From NCBI GenBank assembly GCA_030154185.1, contig JASKKK010000007.1, positions 1-64,000 on the forward strand: a stretch of 64,000 nt of DNA, in the 5' to 3' direction. A program made the translations under genes and the position numbers. The notes beneath the pieces are model-generated. The model was given only the letters and a program-made list of their open reading frames with translations. It ran no database searches and was not told the origin of the DNA. The DNA comes from Desulfuromonadales bacterium. Lineage in GTDB: Bacteria > Desulfobacterota > Desulfuromonadia > Desulfuromonadales > Syntrophotaleaceae. Below, piece after piece: positions 5,872 to 33,123 of the stretch (within the stretch, counting starts at the first letter, position 1; the number at the start of each line of letters is the position of its first letter).

Positions 5872-6137
5872 ATTCCCCCGCGGCGTTCAATATAGTAGGC
5901 GAAACCGATGACGCTGAGAAAAGCGATGACGGCCCAGACGGCTGTCACGTCGACGAGTACCGGGCGGTTTTCGTTGATGCCGGTCACGACGATGATGCCC
6001 GCCACCGAAGCTGCAATCAGATCAAAGGCGACAATTCTGTCGGCCAGCGTCGGCCCTCGCACCAGGCGGATAAAGGACAGGCCCATGGCTCCGTACAGCA
6101 GGGGGAACAATATCCAGACGGAAATTTGGCTGATCAA
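5868..6137 (-). CDS. mrpF: Mrp Na+/H+ antiporter subunit F
   Basis: An 89-residue membrane subunit with three helices and the family stretch RLVRGPTLADRIVAFDLIA, which contains the conserved aspartate-arginine region of MnhF/PhaF proteins. The start codon is TTG and overlaps the mrpE stop as TTGA, the only non-ATG overlap in the operon. The mrpG start overlaps its own stop. Confidence 0.93.
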   Translation of the reverse strand: MISQISVWILFPLLYGAMGLSFIRLVRGPTLADRIVAFDLIAASVAGIIVVTGINENRPVLVDVTAVWAVIAFLSVIGFAYYIERRGGI

Positions 6138-6616
6138 CGTAAAAGCTCCATGATGCGTCGTTCGAGTCTGTTTTTAAGATTTTTTTTGAACTGTTGCACG
6201 TCGTCGATGTACATGGCATGGATGTAAAGGGTCTTGCGGTCGCTTGAAACATCCAGGCTCAGGGTGCCGGGTGTCAGGGTAATGATATTGGCAAAAAAGG
6301 TGATTTCCAGATCTCCTTCAAGGTCGAGAGGGATGCCGAGAACCGCCGGGCGCATATGATGGCGGGGCGTAAGAACATCATACGCAACCCGCAGGCTCGC
6401 CAGAATAAGCTCGACCAAAAAAAATCCGAGGAATTTTGTCCAGAGTATGATTTTTTTCAGGTAAAAGATCAGTGGCACGCTTTCTCCACCTGGATGGGAG
6501 ATCCACAGAGCCAGAGAGCTGATCACAAACCCGAGCAGAAAGTTGCCTGCGGAAAAATCGCCGGTCAGGGCCATCCAAATCAACGGTAATATAAAAATTC
6601 CCCAGAAGCGTTTCAT
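6134..6616 (-). CDS. mrpE: Mrp Na+/H+ antiporter subunit E
   Basis: A 160-residue subunit with two N-terminal membrane helices and a cytoplasmic C-terminal domain. LLGFVISSLALW, the LASLRVAYDVLTPR region and ITLTPGTLSLDVSSDRKTLYIH are typical of the MnhE/PhaE family. It belongs to the peripheral half of the Mrp complex. Its ATG overlaps the mrpD stop by four bases. Confidence 0.94.
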   Translation of the reverse strand: MKRFWGIFILPLIWMALTGDFSAGNFLLGFVISSLALWISHPGGESVPLIFYLKKIILWTKFLGFFLVELILASLRVAYDVLTPRHHMRPAVLGIPLDLEGDLEITFFANIITLTPGTLSLDVSSDRKTLYIHAMYIDDVQQFKKNLKNRLERRIMELLR

Positions 6617-8124
6617 AACGTCACCCCCAGGACGGCCTGGATGTATCGGTTCGGATCGAGGAGCTGAGACGCTGCCTGTTGAGCCAGTTCAAACAACAGG
6701 CCGGGCCACAGGCCGATGGTCAAGGTCAGCAGAGCCAGCGAAATCATGGGCAGGTAGAACAGGGCGGTTTTTCCCGGCGGCAGTTTTTTCTGGTGTGCGT
6801 GCCGCTCGGGATGGGCGGCTGGCACGGTGCCCCAGAATGCCTTGAGCCAGATTTTTGTCATCGATATCAATGTCAATGCGCCAACCAGAAGACCCAACGC
6901 GCCGATAAGGTACCTTTTTTCTTCGAAACTGGCCCAGATCAGAAAAAACTTGGCCCAGAACCCCGATAATGGCGGCAAACCCGCCAGGGACAGTGCGGGG
7001 ATCAGAAACAGTATCGAGAGGAAGGGGGCGGTGCTGAGAAAACCTCCGAGCCGGTTCAGGTCTTCGGTGCTGCGCAGCTTGTGTGCAACGCCGCTGACCA
7101 GGAAAAGGTTGGTTTTTACGATGATGTGATGAACGATGTAAAAGACCGTGCCGGCCAGAGCCAGAGGCGTAAAAATTCCCAGCCCCATGATCATGTAGCC
7201 AACCTGACTGATAATATGAAAGGACAGGATGCGTCGAAAACCGTCCTGGCAGACGGCGCCGAGTACTCCCGTCAGCATGGTCATGGCAGCCAGAACCAGG
7301 ATCAGTTCATGAGTAAATGAGATATCCCGGATGAAAAGAAGGGTAAAGGCTCGCACCAGGGCATAGACCCCGACCTTGGTCAACAACCCGGCAAAAACGG
7401 CGGAAACCGCTACCGGTGGGGTGTGGTAGGAGGCGGGTAACCAGGAAAAAAGGGGGAACAGGGCCGCCTTGATACCGAACGCCACCAGAAAGAGCATGGC
7501 GAGTGCGGAGACCAGCCCCGATTGCTCTGCGGTTTGCAGATGACGAGCGATGTCGGCCATATTGAGGGTTCCGACAAGCCCATAGAGAATTCCCAGGGCG
7601 GTCAAAAAAAACGCCGATGCCACCAGGTTCAAAATCACATACTTGACCCCTCCTTCAAGCTGTCCCCTTTCGCCGCCCAGGGCCAAAAGGATGAAAGAAG
7701 CCATCAGCATGACCTCGAACCAGACATAAAGATTGAACAGATCGCCGGCCAGGAAACAGCCGCAAACGCCCATCAGAAGCAGATGCAGAAAAGGATAGAA
7801 ACCGAAGCTTTCCCGTCCGGAGTCTATTCCGGCCAGGGCGTAAAAGGTTATGGCTGTTCCGGTTATCGCCGCCAGGGTGATCATGAGGGAACTGAACAGA
7901 TCGGCAACCAGGCTGATTCCGAACGGCGCCGGCCAGTCTCCCGCCTGCAGGACCAGATATCCCTGCCGGCAGGTTGCGGTCAGCAATGCCAGAGCACAAA
8001 TCAAATGGGCAACGGCTCCCAGGACCGCCGCGAGCCGTTGCAGCCTCGGTCTTTTAAGACTTATCAGGCACAAGGAGGCCGTACCGAACGGTATCAGGAT
8101 AGGCAGGGCGGGTAGAGAAATCAT
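6613..8124 (-). CDS. mrpD: Mrp Na+/H+ antiporter subunit D (NuoN/ND-like)
   Basis: A 503-residue polytopic protein homologous to the antiporter-like subunits of complex I. Features include about 14 hydrophobic segments, LFNLYVWFEVMLMASFILLALGG with its conserved glutamate, and the KAALFPLFSWLPASYHTPPVAVSAVFAGLLTKVGVYAL region (cited in parts) carrying the conserved lysines. It should form one of the two ion-translocating modules with MrpA. ATGA overlap with mrpC couples translation. Confidence 0.95.
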   Translation of the reverse strand: MISLPALPILIPFGTASLCLISLKRPRLQRLAAVLGAVAHLICALALLTATCRQGYLVLQAGDWPAPFGISLVADLFSSLMITLAAITGTAITFYALAGIDSGRESFGFYPFLHLLLMGVCGCFLAGDLFNLYVWFEVMLMASFILLALGGERGQLEGGVKYVILNLVASAFFLTALGILYGLVGTLNMADIARHLQTAEQSGLVSALAMLFLVAFGIKAALFPLFSWLPASYHTPPVAVSAVFAGLLTKVGVYALVRAFTLLFIRDISFTHELILVLAAMTMLTGVLGAVCQDGFRRILSFHIISQVGYMIMGLGIFTPLALAGTVFYIVHHIIVKTNLFLVSGVAHKLRSTEDLNRLGGFLSTAPFLSILFLIPALSLAGLPPLSGFWAKFFLIWASFEEKRYLIGALGLLVGALTLISMTKIWLKAFWGTVPAAHPERHAHQKKLPPGKTALFYLPMISLALLTLTIGLWPGLLFELAQQAASQLLDPNRYIQAVLGVTL

Positions 8125-8468
8125 GTGTCGGTCGTCCTCATTTCATCGAGATTATCCGCCTCGGTGGTTTCTGCCGCCCGGCGGAAAAGGACCAGTGTAA
8201 AAGCCAGCACGCCGAAAGCGATGACGATGGCCGTCAACACCAGTGCCTGGGGGACGGGATCGGCGATGGGATAACTGGGACGGCCGAGAGTCTCTTCGAC
8301 AATCGGAGGGTGCCCTCTCGTCAGTCTCGCAGCGGTAAAAATCAACAGATTGACGGCATTGGTCAAAATTGCAAGTCCGATAATTACCTTGACGGGGGTG
8401 GGGCGCAGCAGGAGGTACACGCCGGTTCCGTAGAGGCCGCCCACCACCAGGGCCATGAGAATCTCCAT
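8121..8468 (-). CDS. mrpC: Mrp Na+/H+ antiporter subunit C (NuoK-like)
   Basis: A 115-residue, three-helix protein related to NuoK. LLRPTPVKVIIGLAILTNAVNL and DPVPQALVLTAIVI (cited in parts) are hallmarks of the MnhC family. The reading frame is open further upstream, but the ATG at 8468 overlaps the mrpB stop as ATGA and gives the normal family length, so I use it. It links the A and D modules in the complex. Confidence 0.94.
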   Translation of the reverse strand: MEILMALVVGGLYGTGVYLLLRPTPVKVIIGLAILTNAVNLLIFTAARLTRGHPPIVEETLGRPSYPIADPVPQALVLTAIVIAFGVLAFTLVLFRRAAETTEADNLDEMRTTDT

Positions 8469-11909: not shown

Positions 11910-11953
11910 GGGCTGCCCGTCGCGTGTCGAGGCGCGACGAGCAGCCCTTTGTT
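11910..11953 (+). terminator. Terminator after the small RHH gene
   Basis: A long stem-loop (GGGCTGC...GCAGCCC arms with an inner GTCGCG/CGCGAC stem) ends in a short T-rich run. It sits between the RHH gene and ileS. Confidence 0.8.
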
Positions 11954-11975
11954 GATTGGCAACCCCCCTTTTTAC

Positions 11976-12003
11976 TTGACTTATATGGGGGTTTTGCTAC
12001 TTT
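11976..12003 (+). promoter_or_regulatory. Candidate sigma-70 promoter for ileS-lspA
   Basis: TTGACT is followed after 16 bases by TACTTT, about 45 bases before the ileS start. The -35 is good and the -10 is weak. No T-box or other tRNA-sensing leader is visible. Confidence 0.4.
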
Positions 12004-12049
12004 ATCAGACTTGATTTTTCCCACCCAGCAGACCTTCGGGAGGAGTGCG

Positions 12050-14833
12050 ATGGACTATAAAAAGACTCTTAATCTGCCAGCTACCGAGTTTCCCATGCGC
12101 GGCAACCTGCCCAAGCGGGAACCCCAGATGCTCGAAAAATGGCAGACTATGGGACTGTATGAAAAAATGGAGCAGGCTGGTCTCAACCGGCCCAATTTCA
12201 CTCTGCATGACGGCCCGCCCTACGCCAACGGGCATATCCATATCGGCCATGCCCTGAATAAGATTCTCAAGGACATCGTTCTCAAAAGTCGCCGTATGCA
12301 AGGCTATTACGCTCCTTACGTACCGGGTTGGGACTGTCACGGCCTGCCCATCGAACTGATGGTGGACAAACAGCTCGGCAAAAAGAAGCGGGATATGAGC
12401 AAGGCCCAGATCCGTAAGGAGTGCCGTGTCTATGCCGACAAGTGGGTCAAGATTCAGAGCGAGGAGTTCGAGCGGCTGGGCGTACTGGGCGAATGGGACG
12501 ACCCTTATCTGACCATGACCCATCACTACGAGGCGGTTACCGCTCGCGAGCTGGCGCGATTTGTGGAAAAGGGCGGTTTGTTCAAGGGCAAGAAACCGAT
12601 CCACTGGTGCTCTTCCTGCGTGACGGCCCTGGCGGAAGCGGAGGTGGAATACGCCGAACATACCTCGCCCTCCATTTTTGTCAAATTTGCCTTTGACGGT
12701 GAGTTGCCTGGGGAACTGAAAGATATTGCCGGACGCAAGCTGTCCTTCGTCATCTGGACGACCACCCCCTGGACCATCCCGGCCAACCTGGGTATCTGCC
12801 TGAATCCGAACCTGCCTTATGCCGTGGTCGAAACCGAGGGCGAGCTGCTGGTGGTGGCCGAAGGTCTGGTATCCGAGGTCATGCGGCAACTGGAAAGGGA
12901 GGAATACCGGGTAGTCAAGACTTTCGATGCGCATATATTCGAGCGCAAGACCTGCCGGCATCCGTTTTACGATCGGCCTTCGATGATCGTTCTTGGCGAT
13001 CACGTTACTCTGGAAGCAGGTACCGGTTGCGTACATACCGCACCCGGCCACGGTCAGGATGACTATATTGTGGGTCTGGCTTACGGTCTCGAGGTTTACA
13101 ATCCCGTCGACGATTACGGCCGCTATTACGAGAATGTCGAATTTTTCGGCGGCATGAAGATCAGCGAGGCCAACGAGGCGGTGAACGCCAAGCTGACCGA
13201 GGTCGGTGCACTGCTCAAGGAAAGCAAGGTCAGCCACAGCTATCCCCATTGCTGGCGCTGCAAAAAGCCGATCGTATTTCGCGCCACCGAGCAGTGGTTT
13301 GTCTCCATGGAGGCCAACGACCTGCGCAAAAAAGCCCTGGAGCATATCAACGATGTGACCTGGATCCCCCGCTGGGGTCGCGATCGCATCTACAATATGG
13401 TCGAAAACCGCCCCGACTGGTGTATCAGCCGCCAGCGCAGCTGGGGGGTTCCCATCACCATCTTTTATTGTGCCAAGTGCGGAGAAGCCGTCGAAGACAG
13501 CAAGGTCATGTATCATGTGGCCGACCTGTTCGAAGAGGGGGGCAGCGACATCTGGTTTGAAAAAGAGGCACGGGAATTGATGCCGGAGGGTACGCTCTGC
13601 CCATCCTGCGGCCATGACGATTTCACCAAGGAGACCGACATCCTCGATGTCTGGTTCGATTCCGGTGTCTCTCATGCCGCCGTGTTGGATCATCGCGATT
13701 ATCTCAACTGGCCTGCGGAGTTGTATCTGGAAGGCAGCGATCAGCATCGCGGCTGGTTTCATTCGAGTCTGCTGGCTTCTGTCGGGACCCGGGGACTCAC
13801 TCCTTATAAGTCGGTTCTGACCCACGGTTTCGTGGTGGACGGCAAGGGCAAGAAGATGTCCAAGTCGGTAGGTAACGTCGTCGCCCCTGAAGAGGTCATC
13901 AAGAAGTACGGCGCGGAAATTTTGCGCCTGTGGGTGGCGGCTCAGGATTATCGGGATGATGTCCGCATCAGCAATGAAATCCTGCAGCGCCTGTCCGACG
14001 CCTATCGTCGGATTCGGAATACCGCCCGTTATATCCTGGGTAACCTCAGCGGCTTCGATCCGGCGCGGGATATGGTGGCGGACGACGCGTTGCTTGAACT
14101 TGATCGCTGGGCTTTGGCCAAACTCGAGGACCTGGCCGGACGGGTGGAAAAGGCGTACGAAAATTACGAATTCCACGTCATCTACCACGCCGTACACAAT
14201 TTCTGCAGTATCGAAATGAGTTCCTTCTACCTCGATGTGCTGAAGGACCGCCTGTATGTTTCCGGAGACGGAAGTATCGGACGGCGCAGCGCTCAGACTG
14301 CCATGTATCGGATTATCGATTGCATCACGCGGTTGATTGCGCCCGTATTGTCCTTTACCGCCGACGAGATCTGGAATTTTATGCCGGGGGAACGTCCGGA
14401 GAGCGTTCATCTGTCCGACTTTATCCGTTTCCCGGGCAGTTGCAGGGATGCCGCCCTGGAAGAGCGCTACGACAATCTCCTCGAAATTCGTGCGGAAGTG
14501 TCCAAAGCACTGGAACTGGCACGTAACGACAAGACTATCGGTCATTCCCTCGATGCCAGGGTATTGCTGAACGCTCCCGCAGGATCCGTCCTGGAGTTGC
14601 TGGAAAAATATCGGGATCAGCTGGCTGCACTGTTCATTGTCTCCCAGGTCGAACTGGTCGATGACCTGGATAACGGTCTTCAGGCAGAGCATCTCCCCGA
14701 TCTGAAGATCAAGGTCGAAAAAGCTTTGGGAGAAAAATGTCAACGATGCTGGAATTACGCAACCTCCGTCGGAGAAAGCGCCGAACATCCGGCTCTTTGC
14801 CGGCGTTGCGTGGCTGTGCTCGGCGAGCAATGA
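12050..14833 (+). CDS. ileS: Isoleucyl-tRNA synthetase
   Basis: Class I synthetase that charges tRNA-Ile and edits misactivated valine; 927 residues, a usual bacterial length. The catalytic core shows the HIGH-type motif in [10 protein letters not shown] and KMSKS in [10 protein letters not shown]. The CP1 editing domain lies between them, with a [11 protein letters not shown] stretch. The C terminus carries the zinc-binding pattern CQRCWNY...CRRC. The frame is open further upstream, but the ATG at 12050 follows GGAGGAG and begins the canonical N terminus. lspA overlaps its end, as in many bacteria. Confidence 0.98.
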
Positions 14834-25337: not shown

Positions 25338-26834
25338 TTAGAGCGCACCGTTATGGCAAAAGGTGCAGGCGATGCCTGGCGGAATCTCGCCGCCGGGATG
25401 AGCGAACGGCAAGCCGTCCAGGCTGCTGGAGGCCGGCTCCTTGCCGCGGGCCTGCGAAATGATGATGTGGCAGGCGTTGCAGTCGGTGGCGATGGCCTGT
25501 CCCGTGGAGTTGACGTGCTCCCCGTCGTGACAGCGGAAACATCCCGGCCAGTTGAGGTGGCCGATGTTGTCGGGACGAACCTGCCAGTTGGTTTTCATCT
25601 CCGGAAAAAAATTGTTGCGATAGATGTTCTGGGTTTCCGCAATCGCCTGCTCGATTTTCGTTTGCTCCTTATATTCCGGGTACCGGCCTGCAATATGGGC
25701 GGCAATCTGCTGCAAGCCTTCAGCCCGGGATTCGGCGCCGGCGCTTTGCATCAGGGCCTCGGTCGCATGGTGCTTGATGGAAGGGATGGATGCGTCGACA
25801 CGGTTGAGCCAGAGAGCTACATTCAGAGCTTTGCTGGGGGATTGAAAGATATGGGTCGGACGGTTGTGGCAGTCGATACAATCCATGAGCCGTACGTCTT
25901 TTTGTTCCGGTGCCGAAAGAGGGCCTTTATCGGTTGTTCGGTATATGGTGACTTTGCCGGTAGACCGGTTCGTAACCTTTACCCAGGGTATGGTTTGCCG
26001 GCTTTTGTCGGCGGGAAGGTATTCGATGTCGTTGCTCACGGCCATATGCCAGTGAATGCCCCCGATCGGTCCATGCAGGGGATTGGCCCCTCCAACCTTG
26101 ATCATCATCCGGATTTCGAAGGGCGTATTATCCGTATCGGAGAGGTAGTGCCGGTGCAGCAGTTCCGTGGAACCATAGAACTTTTCCGGCCAGTGGCACT
26201 GTTCGCAGGTTTCCCTGGCCGGACGCAGATTTTCGACGGGAACAGGAATGGGGCGGGGGTAAGAATCGGTGAGAACGGCATAGACCTGTCGCAATCCCGA
26301 AATCTTGGCCCGTACGTACCAGGAAGCTCCGGGTCCTATGTGGCATTTTGTGCAGGCGACCCGGGCATGAGGCGAATTCAGATAGGTTGTGTGGACCGGC
26401 TCCATGACCTGGTGGCATAAAAGGCCGCAGAAAGCCACCGATTCCGTGACCTGATAGGCGCGATAGCTGCCAAAGGCGGAAAAAAGCAGGAATACGAAAC
26501 CGATACAGGCTGTCAGAATCAGATTCCGCCGGTGACGGGGATTGTTCAGGTCGATGTGGGGCAGGCGTGGTTTGAACCCCGGTTTTCTTTGCAGGCGACG
26601 TTGGTACAGAATGCCTGCAAAGATGAGAATCAGACCGACGAATACTGCTCCGGGCAGAATGATATAGACCAGTACCCCGAGATAGGGGCGGTTAAACCCG
26701 AGGAAAATATCGAAGCCGATCAGAATCAACAGGGTCAGCAGCGAACAGGACGCAAGGATGATACCTGCGAGGCCGAGCCAGTTCCCGGCATATGACAGAG
26801 GTCCCTTTGGGGACTGTGGGGAAAAATCGGACAT
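25338..26834 (-). CDS. ImcH-like NapC/NirT heptaheme inner-membrane cytochrome
   Basis: A 498-residue protein with three membrane helices (about residues 16-40, 51-77 and 104-125) and a NapC/NirT domain. It has six CXXCH motifs (CTKCH, CEQCH, CIDCH, CFRCH, CNACH, CTFCH) plus one CX3CH (CGLLCH), hence seven likely hemes. This matches the layout of Geobacter ImcH, a menaquinol-oxidising cytochrome needed for high-potential extracellular acceptors; paralogues with the same layout exist, so I give no symbol. GAGGGGG precedes the ATG. It lies 47 bases after the monoheme cytochrome gene and upstream of the octaheme and barrel genes, which fits a quinol-to-outside path. Confidence 0.85.
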   Translation of the reverse strand: MSDFSPQSPKGPLSYAGNWLGLAGIILASCSLLTLLILIGFDIFLGFNRPYLGVLVYIILPGAVFVGLILIFAGILYQRRLQRKPGFKPRLPHIDLNNPRHRRNLILTACIGFVFLLFSAFGSYRAYQVTESVAFCGLLCHQVMEPVHTTYLNSPHARVACTKCHIGPGASWYVRAKISGLRQVYAVLTDSYPRPIPVPVENLRPARETCEQCHWPEKFYGSTELLHRHYLSDTDNTPFEIRMMIKVGGANPLHGPIGGIHWHMAVSNDIEYLPADKSRQTIPWVKVTNRSTGKVTIYRTTDKGPLSAPEQKDVRLMDCIDCHNRPTHIFQSPSKALNVALWLNRVDASIPSIKHHATEALMQSAGAESRAEGLQQIAAHIAGRYPEYKEQTKIEQAIAETQNIYRNNFFPEMKTNWQVRPDNIGHLNWPGCFRCHDGEHVNSTGQAIATDCNACHIIISQARGKEPASSSLDGLPFAHPGGEIPPGIACTFCHNGAL

Positions 26835-26881
26835 GGTTCCCCCTCGTTATGGGGTCCAGGTGTGCGCTGCTGTCATAAGGT

Positions 26882-27193
26882 CTACGGCCTTGAAGCGGAG
26901 CGAAGATAATGAAGCATGGCCTTCATCTCTTCATCGCTGAATTTATAGGCGGGCATGCGTGTGCCGGCACCCAGGGTCTGTTTGGGATTAAGTATCGACT
27001 GCTTGAGAAATTCGTCGGTTTTACCTTCAGCAATTCCGGCCAGAGGCTGAGCCATTCCTCCGTCTTTGTGGCAGATGGCACAGTGGTTTTTTTCGGCGAG
27101 GGCTTTGCCCGTCTGTGTCATATCGCAATCCGCTGCTGCCGGGACGGCAAATCCGGCGAAAACCAAAGCGATGCATAAGGATCGGTAATTCAT
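26882..27193 (-). CDS. Monoheme class I c-type cytochrome
   Basis: A 103-residue periplasmic cytochrome: signal peptide to about residue 21 (VPAAADC), one CAICH heme site, and a distal-ligand methionine in TRMPAYKFSDEEM. The C-terminal helix MLHYLRSAS is typical of small class I cytochromes. A GGGAG site precedes the ATG at 27193. It is the first gene of the electron-transfer operon and may shuttle electrons between the ImcH-like protein and the octaheme cytochrome; the direction is inferred. Confidence 0.9.
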   Translation of the reverse strand: MNYRSLCIALVFAGFAVPAAADCDMTQTGKALAEKNHCAICHKDGGMAQPLAGIAEGKTDEFLKQSILNPKQTLGAGTRMPAYKFSDEEMKAMLHYLRSASRP

Positions 27194-27260
27194 GGTTAGC
27201 TCCCTTACAGGATAAGCATACGTGAAGACAGTTTGCGAAAAAAAGCTTTTATAATTCTTA

Positions 27261-27288
27261 TACATATCCTGATATGACGGAATGTCAA
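27261..27288 (-). promoter_or_regulatory. Candidate promoter of the electron-transfer operon
   Basis: On the minus strand TTGACA is followed after 16 bases by TATGTA, about 70 bases before the first gene. The -35 is perfect and the -10 is moderate. No operator palindrome stands out. Confidence 0.45.
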
Positions 27289-28103: not shown

Positions 28104-28394
28104 ATGGCACTGACTGTTATCGCGAAATTTGTTGCAAAAGCAGGCAAGGAAGAGCAGTTGCGCAAAGAACTTCTGGAACGTATCGAGCCGACAAGAGCCG
28201 AAGCCGGTTGTATTGCCTACGACCTGCATCAGGATATCGATAATCCCGCCGTGCTGGTTTTCCTGGAGAGCTGGAAGAGCAAAGAAGACCTGGAGAAGCA
28301 TCTGCAGATGCCTTATCTGCAGTCACTGCTGGCATTGGTCGACGATATATGCGTCGAACCACCCGAAATACGCCTGGCCAACCAGATCGGCTGA
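28104..28394 (+). CDS. ABM-domain monooxygenase-like protein (YgiN type)
   Basis: A 96-residue protein of the antibiotic-biosynthesis-monooxygenase fold, a dimeric ferredoxin-like alpha-beta barrel. Signature positions are AKFVAKAGKEEQLRKELL, EAGCIAYDLHQD and LVFLESWKSKEDLEKHL (each cited in part). Relatives include quinol monooxygenase YgiN, heme-degrading enzymes and many proteins of unknown role, so the reaction is open. AAGGAGG precedes the ATG. A terminator follows. Confidence 0.87.
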   Translation: MALTVIAKFVAKAGKEEQLRKELLERIEPTRAEAGCIAYDLHQDIDNPAVLVFLESWKSKEDLEKHLQMPYLQSLLALVDDICVEPPEIRLANQIG

Positions 28395-28423: not shown

Positions 28424-28462
28424 AAATCCCCCGGCAGCTAAAAGCGGTCGGGGGATTTTTTT
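28424..28462 (+). terminator. Terminator after the ABM-domain gene
   Basis: An 8-base-pair stem (ATCCCCCG with CGGGGGAT) is followed by seven T residues. The remaining ~245 bases before the next gene show no other feature. Confidence 0.9.
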
Positions 28463-28708
28463 GCGCCCCTTGCCGCCATCCTGGACGCTGCCGGTGTCGG
28501 CCGCAATTGTTCCTTCTGGCGGGTGTCATGCCCGAAGGCACAACCCGACAGCCGCATGCCGGTCGTTGCTCAAACGCACCTCGCTGATAAACTTGATAGC
28601 AAAACCGAACGAAACCGACATACGGTCCGCGTCGCATGCAGACTGCCGGTTTTGTTTGACGATCTGGCCGGGATGTTTGACGGGGTAAATCGCCCATGGG
28701 AGGTGCCC

Positions 28709-30070
28709 TTGATTCGACCGCAGGATGTAAAAAGGAAATTAGCCCGCCATCTTCTGACCGAGGGGCTCGATATCGTATTCGATCTGGACCGTTCCCAGGG
28801 GAGCTGGTTCGTCGATCAGCGTACGGCAGACCGCTATCTCGATTTTTTCAGCATGTTCGCCTCGATGGCCATCGGTTATAACCACCCCCGCTTGTTGCAG
28901 GAACGTGATCGTCTGGGAAGGCTGGCGGTCAACAAGCCCTCCAACTCCGATGTCTATACCGCCGCCATGGCAGAGTTCGTCGACACCTTCTCCCGTATCG
29001 CCATGCCGCCGGATATGCCGCATATGTTTCTCATCGACGGCGGCGCCCTTGCCGTTGAAAATGCTCTCAAAGCCGCCTTCGACTGGAAGGTTCGGAAAAA
29101 CCTGATGGCGGGCAGGGGCGACAACATAGGCAGTCAGGTGATCCATTTCCGGCAGGCCTTCCACGGTCGCTCGGGTTACACCTTATCGTTGACCAACACC
29201 TTCGATCCGCGTAAAACCCGGTTTTTCCCCAAGTTCGATTGGCCGCGCATCGTCAACCCGAAACTCTCATTTCCTCTCGATGCGGACACCCTGAAACGGG
29301 TCTGTGATCTGGAACGGGAGGCGCTGGAGACCATCGGTCGTGTCATCGATGGAGAGGGTGAGGACATTGCCGCCCTGATCATCGAACCGATTCAGGGAGA
29401 GGGCGGCGACAACCATTTCCGTGCGGAGTTTTTGCAGGCGCTGAGGCAGTTGTGCGACCGTCACGATATCATGCTGATCTTCGACGAGGTTCAGACCGGC
29501 GTCGGGCTGACCGGTCGCTTCTGGGCCTTCGAGCATTTCGGCGTGCGACCAGACCTTCTCGCCTTCGGCAAAAAAACCCAGGTATGCGGCATGCTCGCCT
29601 CGCGACGTATCGAGGAGGTCAGCTGTCATGTCTTCCAGGAACGCAGTCGCATCAACTCGACCTTCGGCGGCAATCTCGTCGACATGGTGCGTTGTACCCA
29701 TATCCTGCAAATCATCGAACAGGAAAAGCTGGTGGAGAACGCCGGGGAGCAGGGGGCGCTGCTGCTGTCCGAGTTAAGAAAACTCGCTGCCGATTTTCCG
29801 GATATCGTCTCCAACCCGCGAGGGAGGGGATTGATGTGTGCGTTCGATGCGGCCGACAGCCACATGCGGGATCAGCTGGTGCAGGCGTTTTTTCAGGAGA
29901 AACTGTTGCTTATCGGCTGCGGGGGGCGAAGTATCCGTTTCCGTCCGCATCTGATCGTGTCGGCCGGGGAGATTCGCCTTGCCATGGATATGATTCGCAC
30001 AGTGCTGCGCAAGGGGGATTTCCGGCATCTGCAAATAACCAGGGATCCCTGTCTGTGGAGCGGCACATGA
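28709..30070 (+). CDS. lat: L-lysine 6-transaminase
   Basis: PLP-dependent class III aminotransferase predicted to move the epsilon-amino group of L-lysine to 2-oxoglutarate, giving 2-aminoadipate 6-semialdehyde and glutamate. Supporting motifs are IFDEVQTG (cofactor aspartate) and the Lat-specific FGKKTQVCG, where one of Lys288/289 binds PLP, plus STFGGN. I chose the TTG at 28709: GGGAGG lies 5 bases before it, and the resulting 453 residues begin as Lat proteins usually do. The frame is open to an ATG at 28523. The next gene overlaps its stop as ATGA, so they are coupled. Confidence 0.85.
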   Translation: MIRPQDVKRKLARHLLTEGLDIVFDLDRSQGSWFVDQRTADRYLDFFSMFASMAIGYNHPRLLQERDRLGRLAVNKPSNSDVYTAAMAEFVDTFSRIAMPPDMPHMFLIDGGALAVENALKAAFDWKVRKNLMAGRGDNIGSQVIHFRQAFHGRSGYTLSLTNTFDPRKTRFFPKFDWPRIVNPKLSFPLDADTLKRVCDLEREALETIGRVIDGEGEDIAALIIEPIQGEGGDNHFRAEFLQALRQLCDRHDIMLIFDEVQTGVGLTGRFWAFEHFGVRPDLLAFGKKTQVCGMLASRRIEEVSCHVFQERSRINSTFGGNLVDMVRCTHILQIIEQEKLVENAGEQGALLLSELRKLAADFPDIVSNPRGRGLMCAFDAADSHMRDQLVQAFFQEKLLLIGCGGRSIRFRPHLIVSAGEIRLAMDMIRTVLRKGDFRHLQITRDPCLWSGT

Positions 30071-31647
30071 CCTTCGATTATCGCAAAAGCCTGGCCGACA
30101 AGCTGGGCCATCTGATTAGAGGCGGGGTTGTGGCGGATGAAGTGAAGTTGCGCCCTTTTACCCGTGATCAGAGTATTTACCAGATCGAGCCTTTGGTGGC
30201 TGCTTTGCCCGAGAACCAGGCGGATGTGCTGAAGCTTGTACAGTTCGCAGCCGAGGAAGGGGTGCCCATTACCGCTCGCGGCGGTGGGTCGGGAACCGCC
30301 GGCAGCGCCCTGGGCACAGGTATCGTCATGGCGTTGCCGGAAAACGGTTTCTGGGCACAGATGGACGATTTCAACGTCAGTGGCCCCGAGTGTAAAGTGC
30401 GTTGCGGGGCCGGTGTGCTGCATAACGATCTGCAAACCTTCCTCAAACAGCGCGGATATTATCTGCCTGCGGACGTCTCCAGTGCGAGTATCAGCCGTAT
30501 CGGCGGCAATATCGCCACCAAGGCGAGCGGGCCCCATGCCTTGAAGTACGGATCCATAGACCGTTTTCTCGATCAGGCGGTGTTTGTTTCCGACCGTGGA
30601 GAGCTGGTCGATACCGCCGAGGCGGCAACCATCCCCCTGCGTCTGGTGCGCCAACTGGCCGACCTGCAGAGTCGTCTGCGCAATGATGCGAAGGCGGTGA
30701 ATATCTTGCGGCAACGTCAAAGGTTCAAGATCTCCAGCGGCTATAATCTGTTCGCTTTTTTGCGCGACATCTCTTTGGGCCAACTGATCGCACAACTGCT
30801 GGTCGGCAGCGTCGGCAGCCTCGGGCTGCTGGTCTCCGCCACATTGCGGGGGGAAATTTTCGAACGGCAGCGGGCGGCTGTGCTGGGATGTTTTCCCGGC
30901 ATGGTCGAGGCGGGCCGGGCGGTAAACGCCTTACGGCATTTGAAGGTGGCGGCCATCGAAATGATCAGCCGCGAAACGATGCAGGTCCTTAAGCAGCACG
31001 TCAGCCTGCCGAACGGTCTGGACATGGATGCCCACCTGCTTTTGGTGGAGGTGAGCGGACCGGGTTGCCTGGAACAGGTCGACAGGATCAAGACCCTGTT
31101 GCAAAGTGGTGGCTTTCGTATGACGGCGCCATTGCAGGTGGCTCGTGCCGAGGCCGGCATCGACGAACTCTGGTCACTGCGCAAACGCATCCTGTGGGTG
31201 ATCCGGCATCCGCAGCCGCACCTGCGGGCCCTGTCCGTGGTCAACGATGTGGGGGTGCCGCCCCAGTTGCTGGCGGAATTCATCCATGATGTGCAGCAGG
31301 TCTTCGCCCGGTTGAAAATCGAGGTTCTGATTTACGGGCATGCCGGCAGCGGCAACCTGCATCTGCGTCCGCTGTTCGACGTGACGCTGCCCGATCTTGC
31401 GGGCCGCATCCGCAAGGTGGCCGATGCCGTGTACGAGGTGGTTTTCAGATATGGCGGTACCGTCTCCGCCGAGCACGGCATGGGTCGGCTGCGGGCTCCT
31501 TATCTGCGACGGGAGTGGGGGGACAGACTTTACGAATACATGCGCGAGGTTAAAGCCATCTTCGATCCACGCGGCGTATTCAACCCGGACGTGGTGTTCA
31601 GCGACCGCCCCATTACCGAACACATGCGCGATGATCTGTCGATATGA
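30067..31647 (+). CDS. FAD-linked oxidase of the D-2-hydroxyglutarate/D-lactate dehydrogenase family
   Basis: A 526-residue flavoprotein with an N-terminal PCMH-type FAD domain (ITARGGGSGTAGSALGTGI and SRIGGNIATKASG cited in parts). The C-terminal FAD-oxidase domain contains the metal-site histidines of YGHAGSGNLHLRP and the SAEHGMG signature. This set fits GlcD/D2HGDH-like dehydrogenases of D-2-hydroxyacids. Coupling to lysine 6-transaminase (ATGA overlap) suggests a D-2-hydroxyacid from lysine breakdown as substrate, which is inference. No separate iron-sulfur subunit is encoded beside it. Confidence 0.85.
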   Translation: MTFDYRKSLADKLGHLIRGGVVADEVKLRPFTRDQSIYQIEPLVAALPENQADVLKLVQFAAEEGVPITARGGGSGTAGSALGTGIVMALPENGFWAQMDDFNVSGPECKVRCGAGVLHNDLQTFLKQRGYYLPADVSSASISRIGGNIATKASGPHALKYGSIDRFLDQAVFVSDRGELVDTAEAATIPLRLVRQLADLQSRLRNDAKAVNILRQRQRFKISSGYNLFAFLRDISLGQLIAQLLVGSVGSLGLLVSATLRGEIFERQRAAVLGCFPGMVEAGRAVNALRHLKVAAIEMISRETMQVLKQHVSLPNGLDMDAHLLLVEVSGPGCLEQVDRIKTLLQSGGFRMTAPLQVARAEAGIDELWSLRKRILWVIRHPQPHLRALSVVNDVGVPPQLLAEFIHDVQQVFARLKIEVLIYGHAGSGNLHLRPLFDVTLPDLAGRIRKVADAVYEVVFRYGGTVSAEHGMGRLRAPYLRREWGDRLYEYMREVKAIFDPRGVFNPDVVFSDRPITEHMRDDLSI

Positions 31648-31785
31648 TCGAATGAAAAGATTTCCTTTGGCTTTAATCTGACTGGACGCGCCAGAGCTCA
31701 ACTATGGCAAAAGAGCAACGTTGATATCAGACATTTATTCCGTGATCTTCGTTTTTTTGTACGAGAGTATTTTCGGAGGCAGTAA

Positions 31786-33123
31786 ATGCCAAAAGAAGAG
31801 GTTTTTTTCTGGCAGCGGCATGCCGTGGCGGAGCGGTTGACGCAGGATATCCTTGCAGACTGTATCCTTCGGTGCGAACCTCTGGCTCGCCTGCAGCAGC
31901 GCATGCTCATCGAAGCCAGCTGCCGTTTGTTCGACTGGGTCGATTATCTGCAGGTGCCGGGCTCTACGTTGCTGAGGCAAAAGTTGCAGTTTTGCGGTTT
32001 CGTTCCCCGGGCCGCTGCCGGAGAGGATGCTTTTTTCCATCCCGGCGCCGTGTTGCCGGCGGTTGTTCCGAATGCCGCCGTCCGTGCCGTCGCGCTGCGG
32101 GTCGACAATGTTGCAAATTTTCTTCAGGCCAACAACCTGGTCGCGATCATCGAGGGTAGCCCCTTCAGTCCCATGCGTCGGGCCCGGATCACATTCAACG
32201 GAAAAACCGAACTGCTGGTAATGGAGCGGCGAGGCTATGCGGGCTACGTTCCCCAAATGCGGTCGCATCCGTATTTGCAGGATTACTTCACCGCCCTAGA
32301 GCTCTGGCAGGGACGGCCCCGTACCGGCGACGACGAAGAGCTTTTATGGCAGGAGACCTTCCGCCTTGCCGACCTGCTGGTAGAGCGCCTGGGAGCCGAT
32401 TGCGCCGCGCAGGTCGTGTGTCTTGCCGAGCGGCTATACTGGCAGAGGCGCAACCGGGCCGGACAGCTTCAGAAAAGCCGGCAGGATGTACTGGGGCTGG
32501 GCTGGGGCAATCACGACCACCATACCTTCCGCAGCTCGCGGCGACATTTCGCCCGGCTCGTTTCCCTGTTTTCCACATTGGGATTTGAATCGCGAGAGCG
32601 GTTTTATGCCGGAGACGAGGCCGGATGGGGAGCCCAGGTCATGGAGAACCGCGCCGCAGGCCTGAGCCTGTTTCTCGACGTCGATCTGGCACCGCAGGAG
32701 GTGCAAACCGATTTTTCCAGGGAGAGGTTGCCGGAGCGGGATTTTCTCGGCACGGTGGGATTGTGGTGCGCCCTGCACGGCGATTCCATTTTCGGTGCGG
32801 GGATGCATCATCTCGCCGCGCGGTGCGATTTCACTCGTCTGATTGCCGATCTTGCTCCCAGGGGGGTGGCGTACATGGCTCCGTTCAGCGATTTCACCTG
32901 GCTCAGGCAGGCCTTCAGCAAGGCCGAGCGCTGGTCGGTGGATGAAGCCCGGTTGGAAAAATTGCTGGCCGCCAAACTGGTGACCCGCCGACAGGCGGAT
33001 AAGTTTCAGGCCGAAGGTGCGGTCGGCAGCCATCTGGAGAACATCCAGAGAGGAGAAGGCTACAAGGGATTCAACAAGAAGAATGTCAGTGCCATCATAC
33101 GCAAAACCGATCCGCGCATGTGA
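31786..33123 (+). CDS. Unrecognised VOC-like protein, faint resemblance to DUF1338/HglS
   Basis: A 445-residue soluble protein I cannot assign. Several segments have the look of vicinal-oxygen-chelate modules: residues 105-150, 243-300 (HDHHTFR...LGFESRERFYAG...VMEN...LFLDVD) and 341-365 (HHLAARCDFTRLIADL). The pattern His245-xxx-Arg249 and a second His-rich turn at 341-342 recall metal-binding residues of DUF1338 2-oxoadipate dioxygenase/decarboxylase (HglS), but the match is weak. GGAGG lies 7 bases before the ATG. It follows the lysine transaminase and D-2-hydroxyacid dehydrogenase genes by 138 bases. Confidence 0.6.
   Translation: MPKEEVFFWQRHAVAERLTQDILADCILRCEPLARLQQRMLIEASCRLFDWVDYLQVPGSTLLRQKLQFCGFVPRAAAGEDAFFHPGAVLPAVVPNAAVRAVALRVDNVANFLQANNLVAIIEGSPFSPMRRARITFNGKTELLVMERRGYAGYVPQMRSHPYLQDYFTALELWQGRPRTGDDEELLWQETFRLADLLVERLGADCAAQVVCLAERLYWQRRNRAGQLQKSRQDVLGLGWGNHDHHTFRSSRRHFARLVSLFSTLGFESRERFYAGDEAGWGAQVMENRAAGLSLFLDVDLAPQEVQTDFSRERLPERDFLGTVGLWCALHGDSIFGAGMHHLAARCDFTRLIADLAPRGVAYMAPFSDFTWLRQAFSKAERWSVDEARLEKLLAAKLVTRRQADKFQAEGAVGSHLENIQRGEGYKGFNKKNVSAIIRKTDPRM

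Follow-up and report, generated by a model that had tools for sequence, protein, structure and literature searches.

A duplicated DUF1338-like protein encoded beside lysine 6-transaminase, probably a second family of 2-oxoadipate dioxygenase/decarboxylases

A stretch of 64,000 nucleotides from a Desulfuromonadales bacterium was analyzed (hereafter the window). It harbors a three-gene operon which we consider likely to degrade L-lysine to 2-oxoglutarate; the reaction of the hydroxyglutarate synthase HglS would be carried out by an unnamed protein of 445 residues, termed VOCL here. VOCL probably represents a second, divergent and duplicated family of 2-oxoadipate dioxygenase/decarboxylases, overlooked in bacteria and tiny archaea. 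A route from lysine to 2-oxoglutarate with an HglS-like step had already been proposed in the initial annotation; it is now supported by the fold, the sequence motifs, a conserved gene neighborhood and the exchange of HglS for VOCL between operons.

The following elements of the three-gene set were identified:

28698-28703, forward strand: Shine-Dalgarno-like GGGAGG, read directly from the sequence, five bases 5' of the LAT start codon
28709-30070, forward strand: L-lysine 6-transaminase (LAT), 453 residues, TTG start; TIGR03251 equivalog, PF00202
30067-31647, forward strand: FAD-dependent D-2-hydroxyacid dehydrogenase, probably D-2-hydroxyglutarate dehydrogenase, 526 residues; PF01565 and PF02913
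31786-33123, forward strand: VOCL, 445 residues, predicted Fe(II)-dependent 2-oxoadipate dioxygenase/decarboxylase with two DUF1338-like domains, from an AlphaFold2 model and structure alignment

All three open reading frames were found where they had been annotated initially, and the translational coupling described for the first two was confirmed. LAT scored 730.3 bits on TIGR03251, above the equivalog cut-off of 520.8, and is joined to the flavoprotein by an ATGA overlap, with the ATG at 30067 and the LAT stop codon TGA at 30068-30070. The flavoprotein consists of a FAD_binding_4 domain (PF01565) and a FAD-oxidase_C domain (PF02913). Relatives of VOCL are encoded by at least 138 stretches in other genomes, as revealed by a scan with one genome per species, and the order FAD dehydrogenase-VOCL or LAT-FAD dehydrogenase-VOCL recurs in sister genomes; the three-gene set is therefore real and due neither to chance nor to a spurious open reading frame.

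Just upstream of LAT, a short protein with an ABM (antibiotic biosynthesis monooxygenase) domain is encoded at 28104-28394, separated from LAT by a hairpin near 28425-28466 that resembles a terminator and carries a T run. Further upstream, on the reverse strand (25341-27265), a membrane NapC/NirT-like multihaem cytochrome lies beside a small monohaem cytochrome c. Elsewhere in the window, an open frame of 941 residues (12005-14830, reverse strand) runs antisense to the isoleucyl-tRNA synthetase gene (11924-14833) and is probably a by-product of codon usage.

In the proposed pathway, LAT would transfer the 6-amino group of lysine to 2-oxoglutarate, yielding 2-aminoadipate 6-semialdehyde (piperideine-6-carboxylate). 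An aldehyde dehydrogenase encoded elsewhere would convert this to 2-aminoadipate, and an aminotransferase would produce 2-oxoadipate. VOCL, as a putative Fe(II) VOC dioxygenase using H245, H342 and E418 as its HHE site, would bind 2-oxoadipate and O2, with R249 holding the far carboxylate, and would both decarboxylate and hydroxylate the same molecule to give D-2-hydroxyglutarate, as HglS does. Finally, the flavoprotein would oxidize D-2-hydroxyglutarate to 2-oxoglutarate and deliver the electrons to the respiratory chain. The analysis itself establishes the gene identities, the modeled fold, the motifs, the conserved neighborhood, the HglS/VOCL exchange and the presence of terminal oxidases; what we infer is the metal, the substrate, the use of O2, the product and the electron acceptor, along with the two steps encoded away from VOCL.

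Searches with VOCL against Pfam and NCBIfam returned no meaningful match, and a sequence search of the PDB, with VOCL or a VOCL profile, returned nothing useful. Among the PMC papers searched, those on HglS and FLO7 were found, with no description of the VOCL family. Its structure was modeled with AlphaFold2 on an alignment (A1) of 65 VOCL sequences containing more than 50 invariant columns, which resulted in a pLDDT of 92.7 and a pTM of 0.91. The model suggests the following layout:

31786-32400, forward strand: N-terminal domain, residues 1-205, degenerate DUF1338-like VOC domain (model pLDDT 93.4)
32377-33120, forward strand: predicted C-terminal catalytic domain, about residues 198-445, from VIA-align of the AlphaFold2 model
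32518-32532, forward strand: H245-x3-R249, predicted first metal His and substrate Arg (HglS H70/R74), on strand 243-249; invariant in 65 of 65 sequences
32809-32811, forward strand: H342, predicted second metal His (HglS H226); invariant in 65 of 65
33037-33051, forward strand: E418-x3-R422, predicted metal Glu and conserved Arg (HglS E294-I-E-Q-R; FLO7 E-F-A-E-R), on strand 416-422; invariant in 65 of 65

The best VIA-align matches of the C-terminal half were 3iuz (Z 15.7), the hydroxyglutarate synthase FLO7 of rice (6w1k, Z 15.2) and 3lho (Z 15.1), with 193-219 residues aligned at an rmsd of 3.0-4.3; hydroxymandelate synthase (HMS, Z 13.2), P. putida HglS (6w1g, 12.1) and 4-hydroxyphenylpyruvate dioxygenase (HPPD, about 12) followed. 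The N-terminal half, folded alone, also matched DUF1338 proteins best (3iuz, Z 11.8; 3lho, 11.5; FLO7 6w1k, 10.8), with HPPD/HMS below them at Z <8. VOCL thus appears to have arisen by tandem duplication of a DUF1338 domain. Hence, both halves are predicted to adopt a DUF1338-type VOC fold, in line with the initial view of the third protein as VOC/HglS-like, for which a fold prediction had been suggested as a check. Judged by its residues, the metal site of the N-terminal copy is disrupted: Asp53 and Glu147-Arg148 are kept, Tyr stands where most relatives have His54, and the second His is absent.

P. putida HglS binds its metal through His70, His226 and Glu294 and its substrate through Arg74 (PMC7286885). 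We located these residues in the HglS sequence as H-G-A-I-R (H70/R74), N-H-L (H226) and E-I-E-Q-R (E294). The corresponding motifs of FLO7 and 3lho are D-H-x-A-[FL]-R, which reads D-H-F-A-F-R64 in FLO7, and E-F-A-[ER]-R; those of VOCL are D-H245-H-T-F-R249, H-H342-L and E418-N-I-Q-R422. All 65 VOCL sequences share H245, R249, H342, E418 and R422. In the model, the C-terminal domain comprises two VOC modules: H245 sits on the opening strand of the first, and the second has H342 on its opening and E418 on its final strand; thus, a predicted HHE triad lies on the expected strands. R249 follows the first His by four residues, the same spacing as in H70/R74. The equivalence of VOCL and HglS residues was assigned from motif spacing and strand position. 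The PF07063 (HGLS/DUF1338) profile matched neither the window VOCL nor any of the 65 relatives, and a profile-profile comparison of VOCL with 11 HGLS sequences was not significant. The homology is invisible to profile methods, and VOCL was not placed in PF07063; the kinship with HglS suggested here is based on the fold and the motifs.

From the scan, 80 VOCL loci were kept, from Desulfuromonadales, Desulfobulbaceae, Verrucomicrobia, Planctomycetes including Brocadia, Micrarchaeota and a few others. One locus (L008) belongs to a cultured species, Desulfogranum marinum DSM 2058. The relatives share about 40-70% identity, with about 40% between Verrucomicrobia and Micrarchaeota. The distribution is sporadic (2 of 148 genomes in the phylum of the window, 5 of 195 in that of the Verrucomicrobia locus L014), and no relatives were found among PLSDB plasmids or in IMG/VR. 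Neighboring families were identified by clustering and family scans of the VOCL flanks. LAT, an SDH/LysDH-like gene, L-piperidine-6-carboxylate dehydrogenase (P6CDH, NF050084), an aminotransferase and a FAD or NAD 2-hydroxyacid dehydrogenase were counted as plausible pathway partners, and at least one of them lies within 4 kb at 58 of 81 VOCL loci. The remaining 23 loci, several of them with short flanks, showed no expected partner nearby. Among the recurrent neighbors are LAT, P6CDH, the FAD dehydrogenase and an SDH-like protein whose relatives include PH1688 (3abi) and the saccharopine dehydrogenase portion of AASS. In one genome of the same phylum as the window, rated 100% complete, P6CDH, LAT, the FAD dehydrogenase and VOCL stand in a row (L120). 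P6CDH exceeded its cut-off in 10 of 18 VOCL genomes as compared to 1 of 14 controls, and LAT was present in 6 of 18 versus none of 14. The cluster is thus kept across phyla and often includes P6CDH, a dehydrogenase step noted as absent from the window in the initial annotation, which had called for a co-occurrence analysis. Additionally, a frame of 1032 residues (L059, 3984-7079, reverse strand) appears to fuse an SDH/LysDH-like protein to P6CDH, and a similar frame of 1021 residues with a C-terminal aldehyde dehydrogenase was observed in L018.

The genome of the window itself is about 90% complete and its best P6CDH match reached 380 bits at a cut-off of 730; this aldehyde dehydrogenase (L082) was not accepted as P6CDH, as it is under the cut-off and stands in an unrelated setting. 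The sister genome had no P6CDH above the cut-off either. In both, either another aldehyde dehydrogenase must serve or the assemblies lack the P6CDH gene.

The strongest evidence for the proposed reaction of VOCL is the replacement of one protein by the other in the same place: HglS and VOCL occupy one operon slot. Verrucomicrobia with canonical HglS (L114, L115) show the order HglS-SDH-P6CDH, and VOCL genomes of the same phylum (L116, L118 and others) show VOCL-SDH-P6CDH, the SDH proteins of the two operon types being about 40% identical. A canonical HglS operon of Paracoccus is arranged HglS-FAD dehydrogenase-P6CDH-aminotransferase, with the companions known from VOCL, and PF07063 was found in none of the VOCL genomes searched.

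In a quick tree of VOCL, whose deepest branches are weak, the groups partnered with LAT, SDH or P6CDH comprise Verrucomicrobia, some Planctomycetes and Desulfobacterota. Micrarchaeota, Brocadia and Nanoarchaeota form a supported group with mostly a dehydrogenase or an aminotransferase as partner. The lysine role is proposed for the former groups and is not extended to the latter. At six loci from reduced Micrarchaeota genomes (L012, L019, L033, L038, L041, L073), where VOCL occupies about 6100-8340, the next gene encodes a SerA-like NAD-dependent D-2-hydroxyacid dehydrogenase; at five others (L013, L027, L031, L065, L074), VOCL stands beside a GlcD-like FAD dehydrogenase. Two unrelated enzymes apparently serve the same step. 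In Planctomycetota including Brocadia/Loosdrechtia (L061, L063, L067, L072, L075), VOCL is preceded by a PRK06836-type aminotransferase, which may act as the 2-aminoadipate transaminase of these anammox-type bacteria, regarded as anaerobes. A wider reading is possible, which we put forward tentatively: VOCL may be a second hydroxyglutarate synthase family that arose by tandem duplication of DUF1338 and extends across several bacterial phyla and DPANN archaea, and its Micrarchaeota/Brocadia branch, where a 2-hydroxyacid dehydrogenase or an aminotransferase is the sole partner, may serve as a general module for removing one carbon from 2-oxo acids, perhaps with substrates other than 2-oxoadipate derived from lysine.

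Among the alternatives, VOCL could belong with the HPPD/HMS-type Fe(II) VOC dioxygenases and use another 2-oxo acid, its lysine-related neighbors reflecting a looser metabolic association. Foldseek ranked HPPD/HMS first for the whole two-domain model, with HPPD alignments spanning both halves at low TM-scores, and LAT and P6CDH are not neighbors in the Micrarchaeota/Brocadia part of the tree. We also take the C-terminal E-N-I-Q-R...G-F-N of VOCL to recall the C-terminus of HPPD. However, the alignment of single domains ranked DUF1338 structures first for both halves, the substrate Arg of HglS (R249) is invariant, and VOCL takes the place of HglS in an operon otherwise unchanged. Such an enzyme thus appears improbable, and it was dropped as first choice because both halves fit DUF1338 structures better.

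The host had initially been regarded as an apparent anaerobe, in which the O2 use of HglS would require a different chemistry or microaerobic use. This was not borne out: the genome encodes a COX1 homologue (cytochrome oxidase subunit I, 510 bits) and cytochrome bd (597 bits). A strict-anaerobe host was rejected since a haem-copper and a bd oxidase are both encoded; an O2-dependent chemistry of VOCL therefore needs no special excuse. A haem-copper or bd oxidase above its own cut-off was found in 16 of 18 VOCL genomes searched. The anammox-type genomes G150 and G156 gave only weak oxidase matches, which may be false positives, and neither oxidase type was found in the reduced genomes G155 and G159. 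An O2-free VOCL, for instance a metal-dependent lyase or decarboxylase allowing anaerobes to run the route, would suit the relatives in anammox Brocadia and in these two reduced genomes; it is nevertheless very improbable, because the HHE site and the Arg are those of an O2-dependent enzyme and terminal oxidases are encoded in the own genome and most VOCL genomes.

The closest solved relatives of the flavoprotein in the PDB are glycolate oxidase, human D-2-hydroxyglutarate dehydrogenase (D-2-HGDH) and D-lactate dehydrogenase (D-LDH). The flavoprotein retains the equivalents of human D-2-HGDH Arg386, His434, His441, Glu475 and His476; Thr390 and Lys401 have given way to other residues. Like E. 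coli YdiJ, it carries Arg at the site of the C5-carboxylate ligand Asn443, a position reported to be hydrophobic in GlcD and D-LDH (PMC7801405). According to one report, YdiJ constitutes a D-2-HGDH family (PMC9504171). On the YdiJ equivalog model NF049975, the flavoprotein scored 200.5 bits, far under the cut-off of 1350. Since the active-site residues are kept, the flavoprotein is read as working like D-2-HGDH; its residues support, without proving, a dicarboxylate substrate and argue against a D-lactate enzyme. We see very little chance that VOCL instead acts elsewhere in lysine degradation, on piperideine-6-carboxylate or aminoadipate, with the flavoprotein oxidizing a different 2-hydroxyacid: the product of VOCL is a prediction and the flavoprotein lacks two C5-carboxylate ligands of human D-2-HGDH, but the operon exchange with HglS, the pairing of VOCL with two unrelated 2-hydroxyacid dehydrogenases, one FAD-type and one NAD-dependent and SerA-like, and the reported formation of D-2-hydroxyglutarate from 2-oxoglutarate by SerA (PMC9504171) stand against it.

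The preferred reading, VOCL as a 2-oxoadipate dioxygenase/decarboxylase, assigns a specific, testable reaction to a family lacking a Pfam or NCBIfam model. If it is true, VOCL fills the gap from 2-oxoadipate to 2-oxoglutarate in genomes with P6CDH and without HglS, and a duplicated two-domain protein, which no profile ties to HglS, also performs the HglS reaction.

Compared with known systems, the flavoprotein shares the catalytic R/H/H/E/H residues with human D-2-HGDH and E. coli YdiJ (NF049975), and the Arg at the Asn443 site with YdiJ; it has 526 residues, in contrast to 1018 for the YdiJ model. HPPD and hydroxymandelate synthase resemble VOCL in having two tandem VOC halves, only one of which is active, and in their 2-His-1-Glu site. 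They differ by lower Z scores for each VOCL half and by other pathway neighbors, and they are not known to carry a substrate Arg of the HglS type at the H-x3-R position. HglS/YdcJ (PF07063, bacterial hydroxyglutarate synthase; PDB 6w1g, 6w1h and 2rjb) and VOCL have in common the VOC fold, the H-x3-R...H...E-x3-R motifs and the slot in lysine-catabolic operons with P6CDH, SDH-like or FAD dehydrogenase neighbors; sequence and profile similarity is not detectable, and two DUF1338-like domains in VOCL stand against one in HglS. The nearest structures to both VOCL halves are the FLO7-type DUF1338 proteins (rice 6w1k, Shewanella 3lho) and 3iuz; FLO7 also shares the D-H-x2-F-R motif. These proteins consist of a single domain of about 255-320 residues, whereas VOCL appears to be a tandem duplication with a degenerate N-terminal copy.
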